Of a stretch of 48,274 nucleotides of DNA, positions 21,365-42,228 are shown one piece after another; within the stretch, counting starts at the first letter, position 1; every line of letters begins with the position of its first letter. The stretch comes from Thaumarchaeota archaeon casp-thauma3 (GTDB lineage: Archaea; Thermoproteota; Nitrososphaeria; Nitrososphaerales; Nitrosopumilaceae): assembly GCA_001510275.1 (NCBI GenBank), contig LFEY01000029.1:1-48274 (forward strand), read 5' to 3'. The position numbers and the translations under genes were made by a program. The notes below the pieces were generated by a model, which did no database searches, was not told the DNA's origin, and was given only the letters and a program-made list of their open reading frames with translations.

Positions 21365-21820
21365 ATGTCTATTATTGAGACTATCACAGACGTTGATAAC
21401 ACCTTCTTATCTAGAAGAGAGCTAACGTGTAATTTTGCAGGATTGGGAGGTAAACTCAAAAAAATGGAAGCAGTAGATATGGTTACTAAAGAATTCAAAC
21501 TAGACGGTAAAATTGTAATTCCAATGGGATTGAAAACGCATGTAGGAAAACCAATGATTACAGGAACTTTCTATGTTTATGATGATGAAGGGTTAGCAAA
21601 AAAACAGGTTAACCCAACAATTTTCGCAAGACTAGAAAAAATGAAAACAAAACTAGTTGAAGCAGAAGCAGCAAAAGAAGCTCCTGCAGAAGATGTAGTA
21701 AAAGAAGCTCCTGCAGAAGATGTAGTAAAAGAAGCTCCTGCAGAAGATGTAGTAAAAGAAGCAGAAGTAAAAGCAGATGAATCAACTGAAGAACCAAAAG
21801 AAGAGGAGAAATCCGAATAA
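21365..21820 (+). CDS. rps24e: 30S ribosomal protein S24e with acidic repeat tail
   Basis: Residues 1 to about 98 are S24e ([43 protein letters not shown]), a small-subunit protein shared by archaea and eukaryotes. Beyond the usual end lies a tail of about 50 residues rich in Glu, Ala and Lys. It includes three exact copies of EAPAEDVVK and ends in [10 protein letters not shown]. The tail is probably disordered. The stop codon overlaps the S27ae start by one base (TAATG), so the two are translationally coupled. Confidence 0.92.
21677..21757 (+). repeat. Three tandem 27-bp repeats in the S24e tail
   Basis: Three identical 27-bp units (21677-21703, 21704-21730, 21731-21757) encode the nonapeptide EAPAEDVVK. 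The copies are identical at the DNA level, so the expansion is recent or is kept uniform by slippage or recombination. The unit keeps the reading frame. Confidence 0.92.
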
Positions 21821-29991: not shown

Positions 29992-31581
29992 TTACGTCAC
30001 ATTCTTACTTGTAACATCTTCACCAGGGTCAGATTTGCTGGAGTCATATCCTCCCGGCATAGCCTCACTACCACCTTTGAAGTGTTTCAAATCTTCTCCT
30101 GCAATAACATCTTCTTCTGGTGGGACATAGTCTCGTATATCGTGTCTTGCTTTTCCTGGATATTTGCCTTGTGTCGCAAGTGCTACTACTATAAACAAAA
30201 CAACTGCAATAACTGGAGGTATCATTGTATCTAATCCTGCCCACTCTTCTGGCATTGTAAAGAAGAAGATGAATCGTATAAGTGAACCAACAACAAGAGA
30301 TGCAATAGCTGCAGGCATGTTTGCCTTTTTCCAGAACAATCCAAATGTAAGTGGAGCAAATGCTCCAGCAAAAACTATGTCAAATGCTAAGATAAGATAA
30401 ATTCCTGGTGCGGGTATGAAATACCCAATTGCAGTTCCAACTACCATCATTGGAATAATTGCAAGACGAGTTACTTTGAGTAATTGACTATCACTCCAAT
30501 TTGGTTTTCCCATCCATCGTTTTCTAATTATTCTCTGCATCATATTTCTAGAGATTACACTAGATATTGCTAATAGTCCTCCACTTGCAGTAGACATTGA
30601 TGCCCCAATTACGCCCATCAATATTGCTGCACCAATTGCAAATGGCATAAATTCTGTAGATAGTATAGGTAATGCTAAATCAGGTATAGTATCTGCGGGG
30701 AGATAATAAAACGCCACAATTCCTAGCATGCTTGTTGGAATTACAGTAAACATAGTAAGTGCCCCACCCATTAGCGCACCTCTTTGTGCTGTTTTTGGGT
30801 TGCGAGCTGAAAATACTCTTTCCATAAAGTCAAGTGCAACTATATCTCCCAATCCTAGTGCAAGAATAGCTCCCCAATTAATTAACGCCCCATTGGCAAC
30901 GTCGTATAATCCCGAAAGATCCATGAATTCCGGTGGTGCGTTGTTGTAAATTACATCCCAAGGGGTATCTGCAAAGTTTCCAGCAAAGAAAAGGAACCCA
31001 GCCCAGAACGCACCTATTGCAAGATAGACTTGGAACAGATTTGTATAAGCTGATGCAAATAATCCGCCAGCAATTGTGTAAATTACTACTACTATAGCTG
31101 AAATTGCAATGCCATAGAAATAATCTATGCCAAAAACAACTTCTAAAATAAATCCACTAGCAGCTAAATTACCTGCAACAAGAATTAGAAAACTAATAAT
31201 CATAAGAATGCCAGAAATTCCTTCTGCTCCATTTCCAAATCTTCTAAAATAGAAATCAGGTAATGTAATCATTGACATTTTGTTTAGGGGTTTAGCATAG
31301 AATGCAGCTGTTACAAGTAGACATAATCCCAGACCAATTGGAATAACTGCTCCGGCCCAAAATCCAAATTCAAATACAAGTGCAATATTTCCTAACGTTG
31401 AATTTCCATCAACTGCTTGAGCTGCAAGCATTGTTCCAACCATAAACAAAGGCAGACTTTTTCCTGCAACGATTAATCTCTTACCGCTGTTTTTGACTAG
31501 TTTACCTGCAAATACTCCTACTACAAGCGTAATTACGATAAAGACGGCAACTGCAATACCAAAGCCTTCCATCTCCACCAT
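29992..31581 (-). CDS. Sodium:solute symporter family transporter (candidate urea/guanidino-compound uptake)
   Basis: The 529-residue protein has about 13 hydrophobic segments and SSS-family features such as an early GKSLPLFMVG helix break, SMITLPDFYFRRFG and IAGGLFASAYTNLFQ. It ends with a hydrophilic tail of about 60 residues. The substrate is not readable from the sequence. DUR3-type urea carriers belong to this family, and the promoter shares an 18-bp element with the ureohydrolase gene, so urea or a related compound is a reasonable guess. I choose ATG 31581, since the TATA box (31602-31610) is 25 nt upstream and too close to the alternative ATG at 31590. Confidence 0.82.
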   Translation of the reverse strand: MVEMEGFGIAVAVFIVITLVVGVFAGKLVKNSGKRLIVAGKSLPLFMVGTMLAAQAVDGNSTLGNIALVFEFGFWAGAVIPIGLGLCLLVTAAFYAKPLNKMSMITLPDFYFRRFGNGAEGISGILMIISFLILVAGNLAASGFILEVVFGIDYFYGIAISAIVVVIYTIAGGLFASAYTNLFQVYLAIGAFWAGFLFFAGNFADTPWDVIYNNAPPEFMDLSGLYDVANGALINWGAILALGLGDIVALDFMERVFSARNPKTAQRGALMGGALTMFTVIPTSMLGIVAFYYLPADTIPDLALPILSTEFMPFAIGAAILMGVIGASMSTASGGLLAISSVISRNMMQRIIRKRWMGKPNWSDSQLLKVTRLAIIPMMVVGTAIGYFIPAPGIYLILAFDIVFAGAFAPLTFGLFWKKANMPAAIASLVVGSLIRFIFFFTMPEEWAGLDTMIPPVIAVVLFIVVALATQGKYPGKARHDIRDYVPPEEDVIAGEDLKHFKGGSEAMPGGYDSSKSDPGEDVTSKNVT

Positions 31582-31608
31582 GGCTTTCATAAATTATGAA
31601 AATTATAT

Positions 31609-31625
31609 AAATATTCTAAATTTCA
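31609..31625 (-). promoter_or_regulatory. 17-bp element next to the symporter TATA box, repeated at 32902-32918
   Basis: On the minus strand TGAAATTTAGAATATTT directly precedes the TATA box of the symporter gene. An identical 17-mer precedes the TATA box of the 83-residue protein gene with the same offset of about 3 nt from the TATA centre. It covers the BRE position and extends well beyond a normal BRE, suggesting a shared regulator or a duplicated promoter. Confidence 0.6.
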
Positions 31626-31637
31626 AGTAAAGTACGT
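31620..31637 (-). promoter_or_regulatory. 18-bp upstream element shared with the ureohydrolase promoter (copy 1)
   Basis: The minus-strand sequence ACGTACTTTACTTGAAAT lies just upstream of the symporter TATA box. It is identical over 18 bases to 34296-34313 in front of the ureohydrolase gene, in the same orientation relative to transcription. An exact 18-mer in two promoters of separate transcription units is strong evidence of common control. Confidence 0.7.
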
Positions 31638-31838
31638 TTTAGGCAGAGAAACTAATACGTATAATACATTTGATACAATAATTAATGCAAATTTATGGGT
31701 TTTAAGGAAAATTCATTTTACAATAGGTTATTTTAGAAAATTATAAATTTCTTATTTTTAGATCGCAAAAAATTTCGAATGAAAGTACATTATGATTTTA
31801 ACTCAAAATCTTATTAATTTAATCCTCTTAGATATAAT

Positions 31839-32009
31839 GTGGATAAACAATATGCTTTTGCAGTTATCTTAATTATCTTAGGACTTGGTTTAAATCAATC
31901 TGGTTCATCTGATTCTTTTTACAGTGGTCTTGGAATTGGAATTGTAGCAATGGGAACATTTTGGGTAGTAATTCGATTAATTAAAGAATTGAAAAGAAGA
32001 GAATCTTAG
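31839..32009 (+). CDS. Small two-helix membrane protein (56 aa)
   Basis: The 56-residue product (start GTG, then DKQYAFAVILIILGLGLNQS) has two hydrophobic helices, about residues 6-18 and 29-48, joined by a Ser/Gly-rich loop, and ends with a basic KELKRRES tail. A TATA-like TTATTAATTT (31811-31820) sits about 25 nt before the GTG, which supports a leaderless start. The 30-nt gap to the next unit's promoter is short. Function is unknown. Confidence 0.5.
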   Translation: MDKQYAFAVILIILGLGLNQSGSSDSFYSGLGIGIVAMGTFWVVIRLIKELKRRES

Positions 32010-32027
32010 ATCATCAAATGTACAAAA

Positions 32028-32038
32028 TTATATAAACA
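32028..32038 (+). promoter_or_regulatory. Strong TATA box for the 173-aa protein gene
   Basis: AATTATATAAA-type sequence (ATTATATAAAC, about 32027-32037) is centred near 26 nt before the ATG at 32058, the textbook archaeal spacing for a leaderless message. Confidence 0.6.
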
Positions 32039-32057
32039 ATAAATTAGGTTATTTCGT

Positions 32058-32579
32058 ATGCCAGGAAAAGGATATGCTACAGTTGGGATGAAACCTGTAA
32101 TTACAACTAGATTACAAGAAGCAACCGATAAGAGTTATCCTGGAATGTTTCTACCGAGTACCTTAATCATCATAATGAATGAAATTAAGAAAGGGTATTA
32201 TTCAGTAGACACTCATAAAATAAAATTAGATTTATCAGGTCGTTATAATACCATAACCATCAGAGCAGATGTTAAAAACTGGTTAGAAGAAAATCACAAA
32301 AAGTTAGGTGAAGAGTATGAAGAAAAATACAGTGTAAAATGCTTTACAAAATTTGTGAGTTATTTTATTGTCAACATGCTTGAATCAAAAAATGATGCTC
32401 AAAACCATTCCATTAGTCTAAAGGGGACAGATTTTAAATGGCTTCATGAAGAGTACCAAAAACAGAAAAAGGATTTGAACGATTCAAATGAAAGTCCAAG
32501 TTTTGAACGATTTGCAGATACCTACATTAATGAATTACTTGTAAAGATTAAAGCAGCAAAAGAGATCTTAACACTGTAA
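32058..32579 (+). CDS. Protein of unknown function, possible DNA-binding N-terminus
   Basis: The 173-residue protein opens MPGKGYATVGMKPVITTRLQ and continues with a Pro-kinked helix (FLPSTLIIIMNEIKK), a short-strand-plus-two-helix pattern reminiscent of ribbon-helix-helix regulators. The rest is charged and helical, with no membrane span. It has a strong leaderless promoter. I do not recognise the family, and the regulatory role is only a suggestion from the N-terminal pattern and its place near the nitrogen genes. Confidence 0.6.
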   Translation: MPGKGYATVGMKPVITTRLQEATDKSYPGMFLPSTLIIIMNEIKKGYYSVDTHKIKLDLSGRYNTITIRADVKNWLEENHKKLGEEYEEKYSVKCFTKFVSYFIVNMLESKNDAQNHSISLKGTDFKWLHEEYQKQKKDLNDSNESPSFERFADTYINELLVKIKAAKEILTL

Positions 32580-32621
32580 ATACAATTAGTTGTAATCTAA
32601 ATTTTTAAAATATTAAAAAAA

Positions 32622-32873
32622 TTAGAGCGGGGTCATAGTATCAATTAATCGTGCATTAGTTACATGGCCATCTTTTTCTTGTATTTCAAGATCTACAGTA
32701 TATTTCAAAGCATTTAACATGAAATTAACTTGAACATCCCAAGCTTCTCTAGGTCCTTTTTCAGGAATTTGAAATGTCTCATTTATTCTAAAGTCATTTA
32801 CATCGCCATATAACGCATTAATTGCTTTTCTTGATGCACTGTCAATATCTTCTGGTGTGCTAACGTTTGGCAT
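32622..32873 (-). CDS. Small protein of unknown function, promoter shared with the symporter
   Basis: The 83-residue soluble protein (MPNVSTPEDIDSASRKAINA...) is predicted alpha/beta with an N-terminal helix and several strands, and it has no cysteines. The TATA box (AAATATAAAA, 32894-32903) is 26 nt before the ATG. The next 17 bases upstream are identical to the symporter promoter, so it is probably co-regulated with that transporter. No known domain is visible. Confidence 0.62.
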   Translation of the reverse strand: MPNVSTPEDIDSASRKAINALYGDVNDFRINETFQIPEKGPREAWDVQVNFMLNALKYTVDLEIQEKDGHVTNARLIDTMTPL

Positions 32874-32901
32874 TACTAAATTCTACACAGAACAAATATA
32901 A

Positions 32902-32918
32902 AAATATTCTAAATTTCA
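32902..32918 (-). promoter_or_regulatory. 17-bp promoter element, second copy
   Basis: TGAAATTTAGAATATTT on the minus strand is identical to 31609-31625 and sits at the same position relative to the TATA box. Unlike the symporter copy, it is not followed upstream by the 18-bp ACGTAC element. Confidence 0.6.
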
Positions 32919-32944
32919 TTTTGATTTTTTCTAATTAGTAATTA

Positions 32945-34183
32945 TTATAATTTTGTAAGTCTTTTTAAAAATGAATCCTTTACTGTTTTATCTAATACTC
33001 CTTGTACTTTATATCTATAAAAAATTGCAGTTTGATTATCAGGTTCAAGTTCTATTGCTTTGTTGTACCATTTTAGAGATTCTTCATATTTTTTTAATGA
33101 GAAAAGTAATTTTCCTTTATAGCTTATTGCATATACATAATTCGGACTAATTTTTAATGCTTTTTCACAGTATTCGAGTGCCTCATTATATTTTTTTGAA
33201 TGTTCTAGAAACCACACCATACTACATATGGCAATAACATTTCTCGGTTCAACCTCTAATGCATATTCACAATAGAATCTTGCCTCTCCAAACTTTTTCA
33301 ATGAAGATAATGATATACCTTTACTGTAAAGAGCTCTAACATTATTTGAGTCATATTCTAAAATTTTATCATAGCACTCTATGGCTTTTTTATGTACGCC
33401 TGTTTTGTCTAATACCATTCCTTTATTGAAGTGAGCATCAGTACATTTTGGGTCAATTTCCAGAGCCTTATCATAAAATACAAAAATATCTTTGTTTGAA
33501 AATCCTGCAAAATCAAGTGTCCATCCTTTGGCTACCAGTGCCTTGGTATTTTTGTTATCTATCTCTAAAGCCTTAGTATAAAATTTTATGGCTACTTCAT
33601 GATTTCCTTCCTTTGTAAGTTTTTGTCCTTTTTCATATAGTGTATCAGATTGCTTAGAATCCTCATCAACGGCTTTTTTTAAGAATGATACCGCCTCAGA
33701 GCTCTTGTCTAATCTTCCAAGAATCAAACTTTTATTGTAAAGAGCAGAAGAATTTTTTGGATTATTCAACAAAACTTGATCAGTTAGTTTTAGAGCTTCT
33801 TCATTACGGCCTAATTTACTAAGACACAGACCCATTGATGTTAACGAATCAGAATATTGTGAATCAATTTCAAGAGTTTTTTTGAAATAAGATATTGCTT
33901 CTTCATATTTTTCCATATTCTCAAGTGAAATACCTTTGTTGTACAAAGCATCTAGATTTTTTGGATCTATTGATAGGACATGATCAAAACAAATTATGGC
34001 ATTTTGAAAATCATACATTTTATGCAATGTTGTGCCTTTATGAAGTTGTGCTACAATATTTTCAGGTTCTAGAGAAATAGCTTTGTTAAATTTTGAGATA
34101 GCTTTTTTAAATTGATTGTAATAAACTGCTGTTAAACCTTGGTTCAAAAAATACCATGCATTTTTTGAATTTTTTAATATCAT
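32945..34183 (-). CDS. Tetratricopeptide-repeat protein
   Basis: The 412-residue protein is built almost entirely of about eleven 34-residue TPR units with the usual W/L-G-Y-A-F-A-P pattern, for example ALYNKGISLENMEKYEEAIS. There is no signal peptide, membrane segment or catalytic domain, so it is a cytoplasmic scaffold for protein-protein contacts. It is divergent from the ureohydrolase gene across a 167-nt intergenic region. Partner proteins cannot be inferred. Confidence 0.88.
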   Translation of the reverse strand: MILKNSKNAWYFLNQGLTAVYYNQFKKAISKFNKAISLEPENIVAQLHKGTTLHKMYDFQNAIICFDHVLSIDPKNLDALYNKGISLENMEKYEEAISYFKKTLEIDSQYSDSLTSMGLCLSKLGRNEEALKLTDQVLLNNPKNSSALYNKSLILGRLDKSSEAVSFLKKAVDEDSKQSDTLYEKGQKLTKEGNHEVAIKFYTKALEIDNKNTKALVAKGWTLDFAGFSNKDIFVFYDKALEIDPKCTDAHFNKGMVLDKTGVHKKAIECYDKILEYDSNNVRALYSKGISLSSLKKFGEARFYCEYALEVEPRNVIAICSMVWFLEHSKKYNEALEYCEKALKISPNYVYAISYKGKLLFSLKKYEESLKWYNKAIELEPDNQTAIFYRYKVQGVLDKTVKDSFLKRLTKL

Positions 34184-34295
34184 ATAGATATTTTAATTCA
34201 AATATTATTTTTATAGTTTAGTTAAATCGTATATTACACATAATTTGATTTTTTTTAATTACTTGATGATTATTGGTCACAGATAAAACAAAAAT

Positions 34296-34313
34296 ACGTA
34301 CTTTACTTGAAAT
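34296..34313 (+). promoter_or_regulatory. 18-bp upstream element shared with the symporter promoter (copy 2)
   Basis: ACGTACTTTACTTGAAAT on the plus strand lies just before a TATA-like TTTAATTAT (34315-34323) and 38-55 nt before the ureohydrolase ATG. It is identical to the minus-strand copy at 31620-31637. Confidence 0.7.
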
Positions 34314-34350
34314 CTTTAATTATCAAAGTCTCGAATAAAATTCGATTAAA

Positions 34351-35466
34351 ATGGGCATGGAATTTTATGGTGATGATTTTCAAGGTGCAGATGTTGCACC
34401 ATTTGTAGGAATTAATACATTTTTGCACCTTCCTTGGGTAAGAACACATAAAGAATTGCTTGAAGCAAAACCTGACGTTGCAATTATTGGAGAGCCTTTT
34501 GATTTTGGTACCACTATTCGCCCTGGAGCAAGATATGGACCAAGAGCAATCAGAGCAGCTTCTACAATACCATCACCTCCCTTTGAGCGATTCAATATTG
34601 AAACGGGTGCAGACCCATTTGGAACTTTCCGAACAGTAGATTATGGTGACGTTATAGTTTCACCAGGTGATGTAATAGAATCACACAAGAGAATGACCAT
34701 TAAAGTCAAGGAAGTACTAGAGGCAGATGGCATTCCTGTAATGCTTGGAGGAGATCACTCAATTACTTATGCAAATGTTAGAGCTTTTCAGAAAAAATGG
34801 AAAAACATTGGTATGATTCATTTTGATACGCATGCTGATTGTGCACCACAAGGATTAACAGGTTTCAAGTATGATCATGGTGCACACATTAGAAGAATAA
34901 TGGAGATGGGTTGCATGAAAGGAAAAAACTATTCTCTTGTAGGTCCAAGAGGGTATTGGCCAGGACGAGATTTGTACAAATGGATGGCTGATCAAGATTT
35001 CCAATGGTTTACAATGCTTGATGTTGAAGAATTAGGAATTGATTACATTGCAAAGGAAATAGCTGACAGAGCAAATGACGGAACAGATGCTGTATATCTC
35101 AGTTGGGACATTGATTCTTTTGATCCTGCTTATGCACCAGGTACTGGAGAACCTGAACCAAACGGACTTACATCAAGAGAAGGAATTAGAATGATACGTC
35201 AATTATCAAAATCATTTGATCCTGATAGATTTGCAATGGATTTGGTAGAAATTGCTCCAGCATATGATGTCAGTGATTCAAGTTCTTACAATGGTGGTAT
35301 TACATCAGGGTTGGGACAAAGATTAGTTATAGAACTATTAGCTGGATTGTCATTAACAAAAAGAGGTTTGGATGGAGGAGATCCTGTGAGACCTAAAAAT
35401 TATCGGGGTACTGGAAATACATATAATTTTGGAAATCCACGTGCTGAAATCCCAAAGAGAGATTAA
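34351..35466 (+). CDS. Ureohydrolase (arginase/agmatinase superfamily; candidate guanidine hydrolase)
   Basis: The 371-residue protein has every dinuclear-metal ligand of the superfamily: His136 (GGDHS), Asp159, His161 and Asp163 (FDTHADCA), and Asp253 and Asp255 (SWDIDSFDP). Such enzymes release urea from a guanidino compound. It is longer than a typical agmatinase of about 300 residues, with a 45-residue N-terminal lead and a C-terminal extension. The next gene is a nickel transporter and then urease follows. Known Ni-dependent guanidine hydrolases also belong to this superfamily and are of similar length. Agmatinase remains a real alternative. Confidence 0.85.
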   Translation: MGMEFYGDDFQGADVAPFVGINTFLHLPWVRTHKELLEAKPDVAIIGEPFDFGTTIRPGARYGPRAIRAASTIPSPPFERFNIETGADPFGTFRTVDYGDVIVSPGDVIESHKRMTIKVKEVLEADGIPVMLGGDHSITYANVRAFQKKWKNIGMIHFDTHADCAPQGLTGFKYDHGAHIRRIMEMGCMKGKNYSLVGPRGYWPGRDLYKWMADQDFQWFTMLDVEELGIDYIAKEIADRANDGTDAVYLSWDIDSFDPAYAPGTGEPEPNGLTSREGIRMIRQLSKSFDPDRFAMDLVEIAPAYDVSDSSSYNGGITSGLGQRLVIELLAGLSLTKRGLDGGDPVRPKNYRGTGNTYNFGNPRAEIPKRD

Positions 35467-35547: not shown

Positions 35548-36303
35548 TTGATTGAAACATTAATGGGAATGTTGCAAGCCAACAATCCTTTTTTAATAAT
35601 AATTGCAGGTCTAATGATTGGATTAGTACATGCTTTTGAGCCTGATCATCTCAGTGCAGTCTCTACCCAGATATTAAAAAATAACAATAATACAAGTGAT
35701 TCAAAAAAACTAGAATTAAGGAGTTTAACTATCAGTTCTTCTTTAAGAGGAGTGTTTTGGGGAATGGGACATACATCCAGTATAATTCTAATTGGATTAT
35801 TGATTGCAGGTTTATCATTAAACATACCTAATGATTTCTTTCTTAGTGCAGAAATGGTTGTAGGTTTCATGTTAATTGTTTTAGGGATTTTAACATTTAC
35901 AAACAAAAGTATCTTCAAACAAAAACATATTCATCCTCACAAACATTCAAACGGAATTGCTCACACTCATTCACACAATCATGGTGCAGAACATAAACAT
36001 AGTCATAAATCATATCTAATAGGATGTATTCACGGTATTGCAGGTACTGGTAGTCTTGTAGCATTAATTGCTTCTACTATGAATGGTTTTGATATGATGA
36101 TTTATTTTTTAATTTTATTTGGGATAGGCAGTATAATTGGTATGACTGTTGCTAGTGGAATTATAGGATTACCATTTATTTTATTATCAAAAATAAGTTC
36201 AGCTACTAAATATCTAAGATATACAATTGCTGGAATAACTTTCGTTATAGGTATCAATATTGTATTTACAATCGGGTTAGATAGTAAATTATTTTTAAAC
36301 TAA
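35548..36303 (+). CDS. NicO/UreH-type nickel transporter
   Basis: The 251-residue membrane protein has about six helices, the HAFEPDHLSAVST motif in the first helix, a second GMGHTSSIILIG motif, and a His-rich cytoplasmic loop (HPHKHSN, HTHSHNH, HKHSHK). These are hallmarks of UreH/RcnA-like nickel or cobalt carriers. Standing between a metallo-ureohydrolase and urease, it most likely imports Ni2+ for one or both. The start is uncertain: TTG 35548 has a GTGA Shine-Dalgarno-like box 4 nt upstream, and ATG 35563 is an alternative. Confidence 0.82.
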   Translation: MIETLMGMLQANNPFLIIIAGLMIGLVHAFEPDHLSAVSTQILKNNNNTSDSKKLELRSLTISSSLRGVFWGMGHTSSIILIGLLIAGLSLNIPNDFFLSAEMVVGFMLIVLGILTFTNKSIFKQKHIHPHKHSNGIAHTHSHNHGAEHKHSHKSYLIGCIHGIAGTGSLVALIASTMNGFDMMIYFLILFGIGSIIGMTVASGIIGLPFILLSKISSATKYLRYTIAGITFVIGINIVFTIGLDSKLFLN

Positions 36304-41571: not shown

Positions 41572-42183
41572 TTATTTTAATTGATCAAGAAGTGAGAGAC
41601 TCATCAAATTAGTCATTATCAATCCTTTTCTGTTAACATCACGTCGCGTTTGATCACAATATTTCTTTACACTTTGATGGCTCTTTTCACTTGCAACTTC
41701 AATTACTACAATATTTTCAGAGTATGGGAATGTAAATTTTGAAGGAATAGAACAAAAGGTATTCATATGTCCAAGTCCAGCCTTCTCAATTTTCTCTCTT
41801 TTTAGTAATAGATTTGCAATTTCTTGTAGGTCTTCATCATGTTCTCCATATTCTACATAATATACAGAAACAAAATTAGTGTCTCCTTGAACTTCTCTTT
41901 GGAAAAGATCATCTGTGATGTTAAATACAAAAGTGGTTTTCTCTTGATTATATTTAGAAAGATCTTTTGATATCTGTTCACTATCTTTGAATTTGGCTAG
42001 AAGATAATGATTAGTAGAATCAGAAAAGTATGGTTTACTTTCAATAGAGAATGTACCTGTAACAAAAAATAATTTTTCTATATTTTTTGAATTAATCCAA
42101 GATTCTTTAAGCTCAACAGACTCATGTGTGTGCAAATACGGAGCACAAACATAACCAGAGTAAGATAATTGTAGTTCGGACAC
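41572..42183 (-). CDS. Protein of unknown function beside the urease cluster
   Basis: This roughly 203-residue soluble protein (VSELQLSYSGYVCAPYLHTHES...) has a beta-rich N-terminal half and a helical C-terminus with a Lys/Arg-rich KYCDQTRRDVNRKG segment. It shows no known domain. The GTG at 42183 (or TTG 42186) lies 28 nt after a TATA-like CATAAATA. Just upstream is AACGTACTATAC, which differs by one base from the core of the symporter/ureohydrolase element, so it may belong to the same regulon. Confidence 0.6.
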   Translation of the reverse strand: MSELQLSYSGYVCAPYLHTHESVELKESWINSKNIEKLFFVTGTFSIESKPYFSDSTNHYLLAKFKDSEQISKDLSKYNQEKTTFVFNITDDLFQREVQGDTNFVSVYYVEYGEHDEDLQEIANLLLKREKIEKAGLGHMNTFCSIPSKFTFPYSENIVVIEVASEKSHQSVKKYCDQTRRDVNRKGLIMTNLMSLSLLDQLK

Positions 42184-42216
42184 CAAATCTTCAAAAACTT
42201 TTGTGAGTATTTATGC

Positions 42217-42228
42217 GTATAGTACGTT
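42217..42228 (-). promoter_or_regulatory. Possible third copy of the ACGTAC element
   Basis: On the minus strand, AACGTACTATAC sits next to the TATA box (about 42208-42215) of the unknown gene beside ureD. It matches AACGTACTTTAC of the symporter promoter at 11 of 12 positions and has the same orientation to transcription. The TTGAAAT half of the longer element is not conserved here. Confidence 0.4.

Follow-up and report, generated by a model that had tools for sequence, protein, structure and literature searches.

A 13-bp palindrome shared by the promoters of a sodium:solute symporter gene and of a ureohydrolase gene is probably the operator of a dedicated, pathway-specific regulator of ammonia-oxidising archaea, most likely a 173-aa protein, which would switch both genes. 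The features discussed below, all within the 48,274-nucleotide stretch of DNA that was analysed (the window), are collected in Table 1.

A palindromic element in two promoters

The first-pass annotation had singled out an exact 18-mer, ACGTACTTTACTTGAAAT, on the minus strand at 31620-31637 and on the plus strand at 34296-34313. Both copies were found at these positions. As described there, each lies upstream of a TATA box in the same sense to transcription and is oriented towards its own gene, the symporter or the ureohydrolase; from the end of the 13-base core considered below, it is 14 bp to the TATA box of the symporter and 6 bp to that of the ureohydrolase. The identity of the copies had been held to be far beyond what AT-rich composition would give, which does not stand for an unspecified repeat: Markov simulations with the composition of the window yield 0.4-0.9 exact repeated 18-mers per window. 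Further real repeated 18-mers come from tandem repeats, of which the window holds one with a 30-bp unit at the edge of the contig (1-89) and one at 21673-21750 whose 27-bp unit encodes KEAPAEDVV repeats. Because a repeated exact 18-mer is not rare in a 48-kb window of such composition, the identity alone is weak evidence, and the weight rests on location and conservation.

No third exact copy is present in the 1.22-Mb genome, and no other copy with up to three mismatches was found in the window (0.06 expected for ACGTACTTTACTTGAAAT). The genome-wide search with this tolerance, which the annotation had proposed as a check, returned four further matches, each with three mismatches and all outside promoters. 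As these matches are not promoters, and as the bases beyond the thirteenth run into the BRE/TATA region, the 18-mer was rejected as the functional unit. The real element is confined to the 13 bases at its start, which form an imperfect palindrome with the consensus DCGTA-N3-TACNN; the perfect palindromic form ACGTANNNTACGT also occurs among the sites of related loci. The pattern CGTA-N3-TAC gives six strand matches in the window, corresponding to five sites, against 0.49 expected, a number reached in none of 100 shuffles. It is the occurrence of the 13-bp core that exceeds chance. Scattering regardless of promoters, the outcome against which the first-pass annotation had set its reading, was not seen for the core within the window: the five sites (starting at 31625, 31657, 34227, 34296 and 42215) are all intergenic and lie in promoters.

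Chance identity, or the recent duplication of a piece of promoter between neighbouring genes, could be invoked in view of the number of repeated 18-mers expected per window, and chance probably contributed to the identity of the last five of the 18 bases. The 13-bp core, however, is conserved before both genes in relatives, and the two promoters have diverged from each other outside it. For the core, this explanation is refuted by the comparison of promoters, and hardly any weight is left to it.

Table 1. Sites, promoter elements and genes of the symporter/ureohydrolase locus
Feature	Position	Strand	Remarks
Proximal site, symporter promoter	31625..31637	-	ACGTACTTTACTT, first 13 bases of the 18-mer at 31620-31637; conserved in relatives
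Second site, symporter promoter	31657..31669	+	ACGTATAATACAT, inverted; its start lies 32 bp upstream of that of the proximal site; overlooked in the first-pass annotation
Proximal site, ureohydrolase promoter	34296..34308	+	ACGTACTTTACTT, inside the 18-mer at 34296-34313
Second site, TPR/ureohydrolase divergent promoter	34227..34239	+	TCGTATATTACAC; 43 bp before the TPR gene, 111 bp before the ureohydrolase gene
Site before the 204-aa gene behind ureD	42215..42227	-	ACGTACTATACGC, near-perfect palindrome, 28-29 bp upstream; present in related locus L007 too
TATA box, symporter promoter	31603..31610	-	Read from sequence; TTATATAA conserved in relatives
TATA box, ureohydrolase promoter	34315..34322	+	TTTAATTA, preceded by BRE-like GAAATC; conserved
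Sodium:solute symporter (SSF)	29992..31590	-	Family match; alignment of relatives suggests a start at 31581
Membrane peptide ORF, ~56 aa	31838-32010	+	GTG start; read by eye; between symporter and 173-aa gene
Candidate regulator, 173-aa protein	32058..32579	+	No Pfam family; predicted single-chain tandem ribbon-helix-helix with C-terminal helices
83-aa protein	32622-32873	-	No Pfam family; conserved in the cluster in marine and soil species
TPR-repeat protein	32945..34183	-	Divergent from ureohydrolase; likely shares its control region
Ureohydrolase, arginase/agmatinase family	34351..35466	+	Family match
HX4DH-motif membrane protein	35548..36303	+	Nickel-permease-like by motif only; no Pfam match; conserved downstream neighbour of ureohydrolase
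204-aa protein	41572..42186	-	No family assigned; operator before gene; follows ureD

Conservation and spacing of the sites

Promoters were compared over 66 related loci. Before the ureohydrolase gene, the 13-base core is conserved in marine Nitrosopumilaceae and in soil Nitrososphaerales, and of 69 ureohydrolase promoters from marine and soil ammonia-oxidising archaea, 60 retain a site near the TATA box. Conservation before the symporter gene is looser and covers the marine and related lineages; a second copy lies about 32 bp upstream there, in inverted orientation. Over 67 loci, the density of CGTA-N3-TAC is 1.87 per kb in intergenic DNA versus 0.076 in coding DNA. Ten control patterns, some of them with spacings changed to 2, 4 or 5, do not exceed 0.01-0.14 per kb in intergenic DNA; the core spacing of 3 is specific in these sequences. 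A reversed-pattern control was judged poor because CpG is depleted, and shuffles and spacing controls were used in its place.

The position of the sites is also constrained. Between the end of a proximal site and the start codon there are mostly 42-47 bp, the BRE/TATA following the site immediately, and the distances from site to start and from site to TATA are similar in nearly all relatives, marine and soil. The two symporter sites are 31-33 bp apart, or about three helical turns, in 15 of the 16 Nitrosopumilales promoters that have two; binding to them may be cooperative. The two ureohydrolase sites are mostly separated by 61-75 bp. Since the second of these lies 43 bp before the TPR gene in the window, it may serve this divergent gene, and it is mostly absent from Nitrosarchaeum/Nitrosotenuis-like loci, where the TPR gene sits elsewhere. 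Its retention in soil lineages without that TPR gene means that this would not be its sole role. In some loci (L021-L023, L044, L045), the 83-aa gene has a palindromic site 84-91 bp upstream.

A probable narrow regulon

The genome to which the window belongs contains 15 distinct sites of the relaxed pattern DCGTANWNTAC. Five are those of this locus, and the other ten comprise seven in coding and three in intergenic DNA. A match adjacent to a TFB gene (C1:28550) was left uncounted, since the match of the same sequence in another genome (G007) falls inside a reading frame. In genomes G025-G028, intergenic matches belong almost exclusively to the symporter gene, the ureohydrolase gene and a gene for a universal stress protein close by, and matches outside are nearly all coding. 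Several genera have sites before a universal stress protein gene, at differing places. No operator precedes ureABC or ureEFGD in the window, and none was seen in the urease operons of relatives. A wide nitrogen regulon was rejected, because the strict and relaxed genome scans and the context of the matches gave mostly coding matches; elsewhere in the genomes, the matches are mostly coincidental and lie in coding DNA.

It was also considered that the sequence could be a general promoter element of the lineage, such as an extended BRE or an upstream element, as it adjoins the BRE/TATA in both promoters. Such an element would be expected before hundreds of genes, whereas the relaxed sites of the genome number no more than 15, about half of which are coding, and the second sites are well upstream of the TATA box. 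Unless many degenerate copies are bound, this explanation is refuted by the genome counts, and it is very improbable.

Near-confinement of the sites to the locus thus indicates a narrow, dedicated operator. Comparison of the sequences strongly supports a regulatory site linking symporter and ureohydrolase, on account of its conservation, fixed spacing, intergenic enrichment and loss together with one gene. The regulon proposed in the first-pass annotation is supported for these two genes; its extension to further nitrogen genes is not, and the urease operon is without a site.

Occurrence of the candidate regulator

The 173-aa protein is the best candidate for the regulator, and most likely the one that acts on these sites. 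Its gene, which lies between those of the symporter and the ureohydrolase in the window, is part of the cluster in most loci. Strong matches were found in 16 of 121 genomes, all 16 being among the 24 that encode the ureohydrolase. The 69 ureohydrolase promoters are distributed as 51 with both site and protein, none with the protein and no site, nine with the site and no detected protein, and nine with neither (Fisher p 9e-7, kinship uncorrected). Four changes of the site fall on the tree, three of which are required by supported branches; in no case does the protein change in the opposite direction. Co-loss amounts to 3-4 independent events, too few to reach significance in a phylogenetic sign test (p 0.25). 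No site was found directly before the 173-aa gene itself.

The nine loci with a site and no detected protein are mostly from fragmentary assemblies or on contigs cut there, and one belongs to a genome rated 97% complete (G139/L060). Near-complete genomes that lack the protein (G079, G097, G115, G089, G017 and G118) have no site in the ureohydrolase promoter. In G079, which is 97% complete, a 14-kb stretch carries the symporter, the ureohydrolase and urease, with neither the 173-aa protein nor any site, and G017 and G118 repeat this pattern.

Alternatively, a real operator might be recognised by a different conserved regulator whose gene lies elsewhere, such as an Lrp/AsnC, ArsR, TrmB or further RHH protein; the 173-aa protein would then be no more than a linked member of the pathway. 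The nine loci just mentioned would fit this, binding by the 173-aa protein is read from co-occurrence, and ammonia-oxidising archaea possess many other small regulators. Against it, no genome was found to encode the protein without also encoding the ureohydrolase, and the near-complete genomes listed above have lost or lack the protein and the ureohydrolase-promoter site together. The neighbours fare less well as regulators: the TPR and 83-aa genes were rejected because both persist where the site is lost, and a ParB-like protein of soil species was rejected as the general regulator because it is missing from the genome analysed here. A regulator encoded elsewhere is consequently considered unlikely.

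Predicted fold of the candidate regulator

The AlphaFold model of the 173-aa protein (mean pLDDT 84) displays the succession strand-helix-helix twice, with predicted units E6-11 H13-26 H32-44 and E64-69 H70-91 H96-116. In the PDB, Foldseek ranks chains of the F relaxosome first (probability 1.00, E 0.016, TM-score of 0.38 by query and 0.51 by target). Their fold, their length and the presence of three TraY molecules in that structure indicate that these chains would be TraY. F TraY is described as comprising a whole RHH dimer fold within one chain (PMC12117103). The match of the predicted fold is convincing in topology and weak in E-value. No Pfam RHH family is listed for the 35 members of the 173-aa family, and no sequence match to the PDB or to solved homologues was found for the protein. 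The invariant residues K12, T67 and R69 are in or beside the two predicted strands, a placement that would be expected of a DNA-reading ribbon.

Like TraY of plasmid F, the 173-aa protein is predicted to combine two strand-helix-helix units in one polypeptide, and these may form a DNA-reading ribbon. It differs from TraY by the lack of detected sequence similarity, by extra C-terminal helices, by its archaeal chromosomal gene beside metabolic genes and by its putative site. VirC2 and DndE are weaker fold matches with weak scores, and neither is a metabolic regulator.

Among archaea, NrpR, the nitrogen repressor of methanogens, controls nitrogen genes by way of a palindromic site close to the promoter, GGAA-N6-TTCC. 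NrpR and the present operator have such a palindrome in common but differ in its sequence: GGAA-N6-TTCC is absent from these promoters, and its two matches in the window, a number at chance level, are both coding.

Proposed mechanism

As in TraY, the two ribbon-helix-helix units of a single 173-aa chain would pair into one two-stranded ribbon that reads DNA, so that the protein would bind the 13-bp palindrome as a pseudo-dimer. When bound, it would control the access or the recruitment of TBP/TFB at the adjacent BRE/TATA. The symporter, the ureohydrolase and the divergent TPR gene would be switched jointly, with a universal stress protein gene or the 204-aa gene in some species. The signal presumably reflects either the imported guanidino-type compound or the nitrogen state.

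Activation is slightly favoured over repression, by analogy with other archaeal regulators, because the sites are upstream of the BRE/TATA, a position that in archaea favours activation. The same operator and regulator may instead serve repression, which the imported compound would relieve. Repression is the action of most RHH regulators known, and in genus g36 the core promoter was retained after the loss of both the 173-aa protein and the site; the sites, however, do not lie over the transcription start. If the 173-aa protein is indeed the regulator, repression would be the somewhat less probable mode.

The presumed pathway

The symporter is similar to the PutP/choline type, and the closest relative of the ureohydrolase among solved proteins is guanidinobutyrase. 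Together with the HX4DH permease-like gene and the nearby urease genes, these similarities suggest import of a guanidino compound and its metal-dependent hydrolysis to urea. That a nitrogen compound would be imported and would yield urea on hydrolysis rests on the arginase-family annotation. According to a survey, no guanidine degradation pathway is known in ammonia-oxidising archaea (PMC11410670). For marine species, surveys also list dur3 in a second copy (PMC10753782), and the symporter is possibly this "dur3 copy 2". As the operator joins the symporter to the ureohydrolase and not to urease, the symporter may import the substrate of the ureohydrolase instead of urea.

Two further observations were made at related loci. 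A small ORF with 27-37% identity to the urease gamma subunit, absent from the window, is found between the ureohydrolase and HX4DH permease genes at L025:9116, L027:9116, L036:8200 and L244:5204-5479. At L065:7364-8473, the ureohydrolase frame is broken by a stop in the assembly (same coordinates in G100, 1 TAG).

A second palindrome in soil species

In soil lineages, a second palindrome, TTCGRCNGYCGAA, is present about 42-56 bp before the symporter gene and about 82 bp before the ureohydrolase gene (loci L039-L043, L049, L050, L052, L053, L055-L061, L065 and L068). It co-occurs with a neighbouring ParB_N/HTH_ParB protein, the gene of which carries CGTA-N3-TAC sites in its promoter; this ParB-like protein is possibly a second regulator under the first. 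As with the 13-bp operator, the palindrome marks the promoters of symporter and ureohydrolase, but the protein family and the palindrome are different, and the system is restricted to the soil lineage.

Significance

In a literature search, in which subscription papers were mostly outside coverage, neither a regulator nor a binding site was found to be described for the nitrogen genes of ammonia-oxidising archaea, and no earlier description of this nitrogen-scavenging circuit came to light. The circuit may well consist of an unnamed family of single-chain tandem RHH proteins with its own palindromic operator, extending from marine to soil species and controlling the symporter and the ureohydrolase, with the ParB-like second regulator layered onto it in soil species. 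Ammonia-oxidising archaea are among the most abundant microbes of the ocean, and the use of organic nitrogen separates their niches.

The latter point is documented (PMC12686405). With a small protein and a 13-bp site, the proposed control of organic nitrogen use is directly testable in vitro, without genetics.
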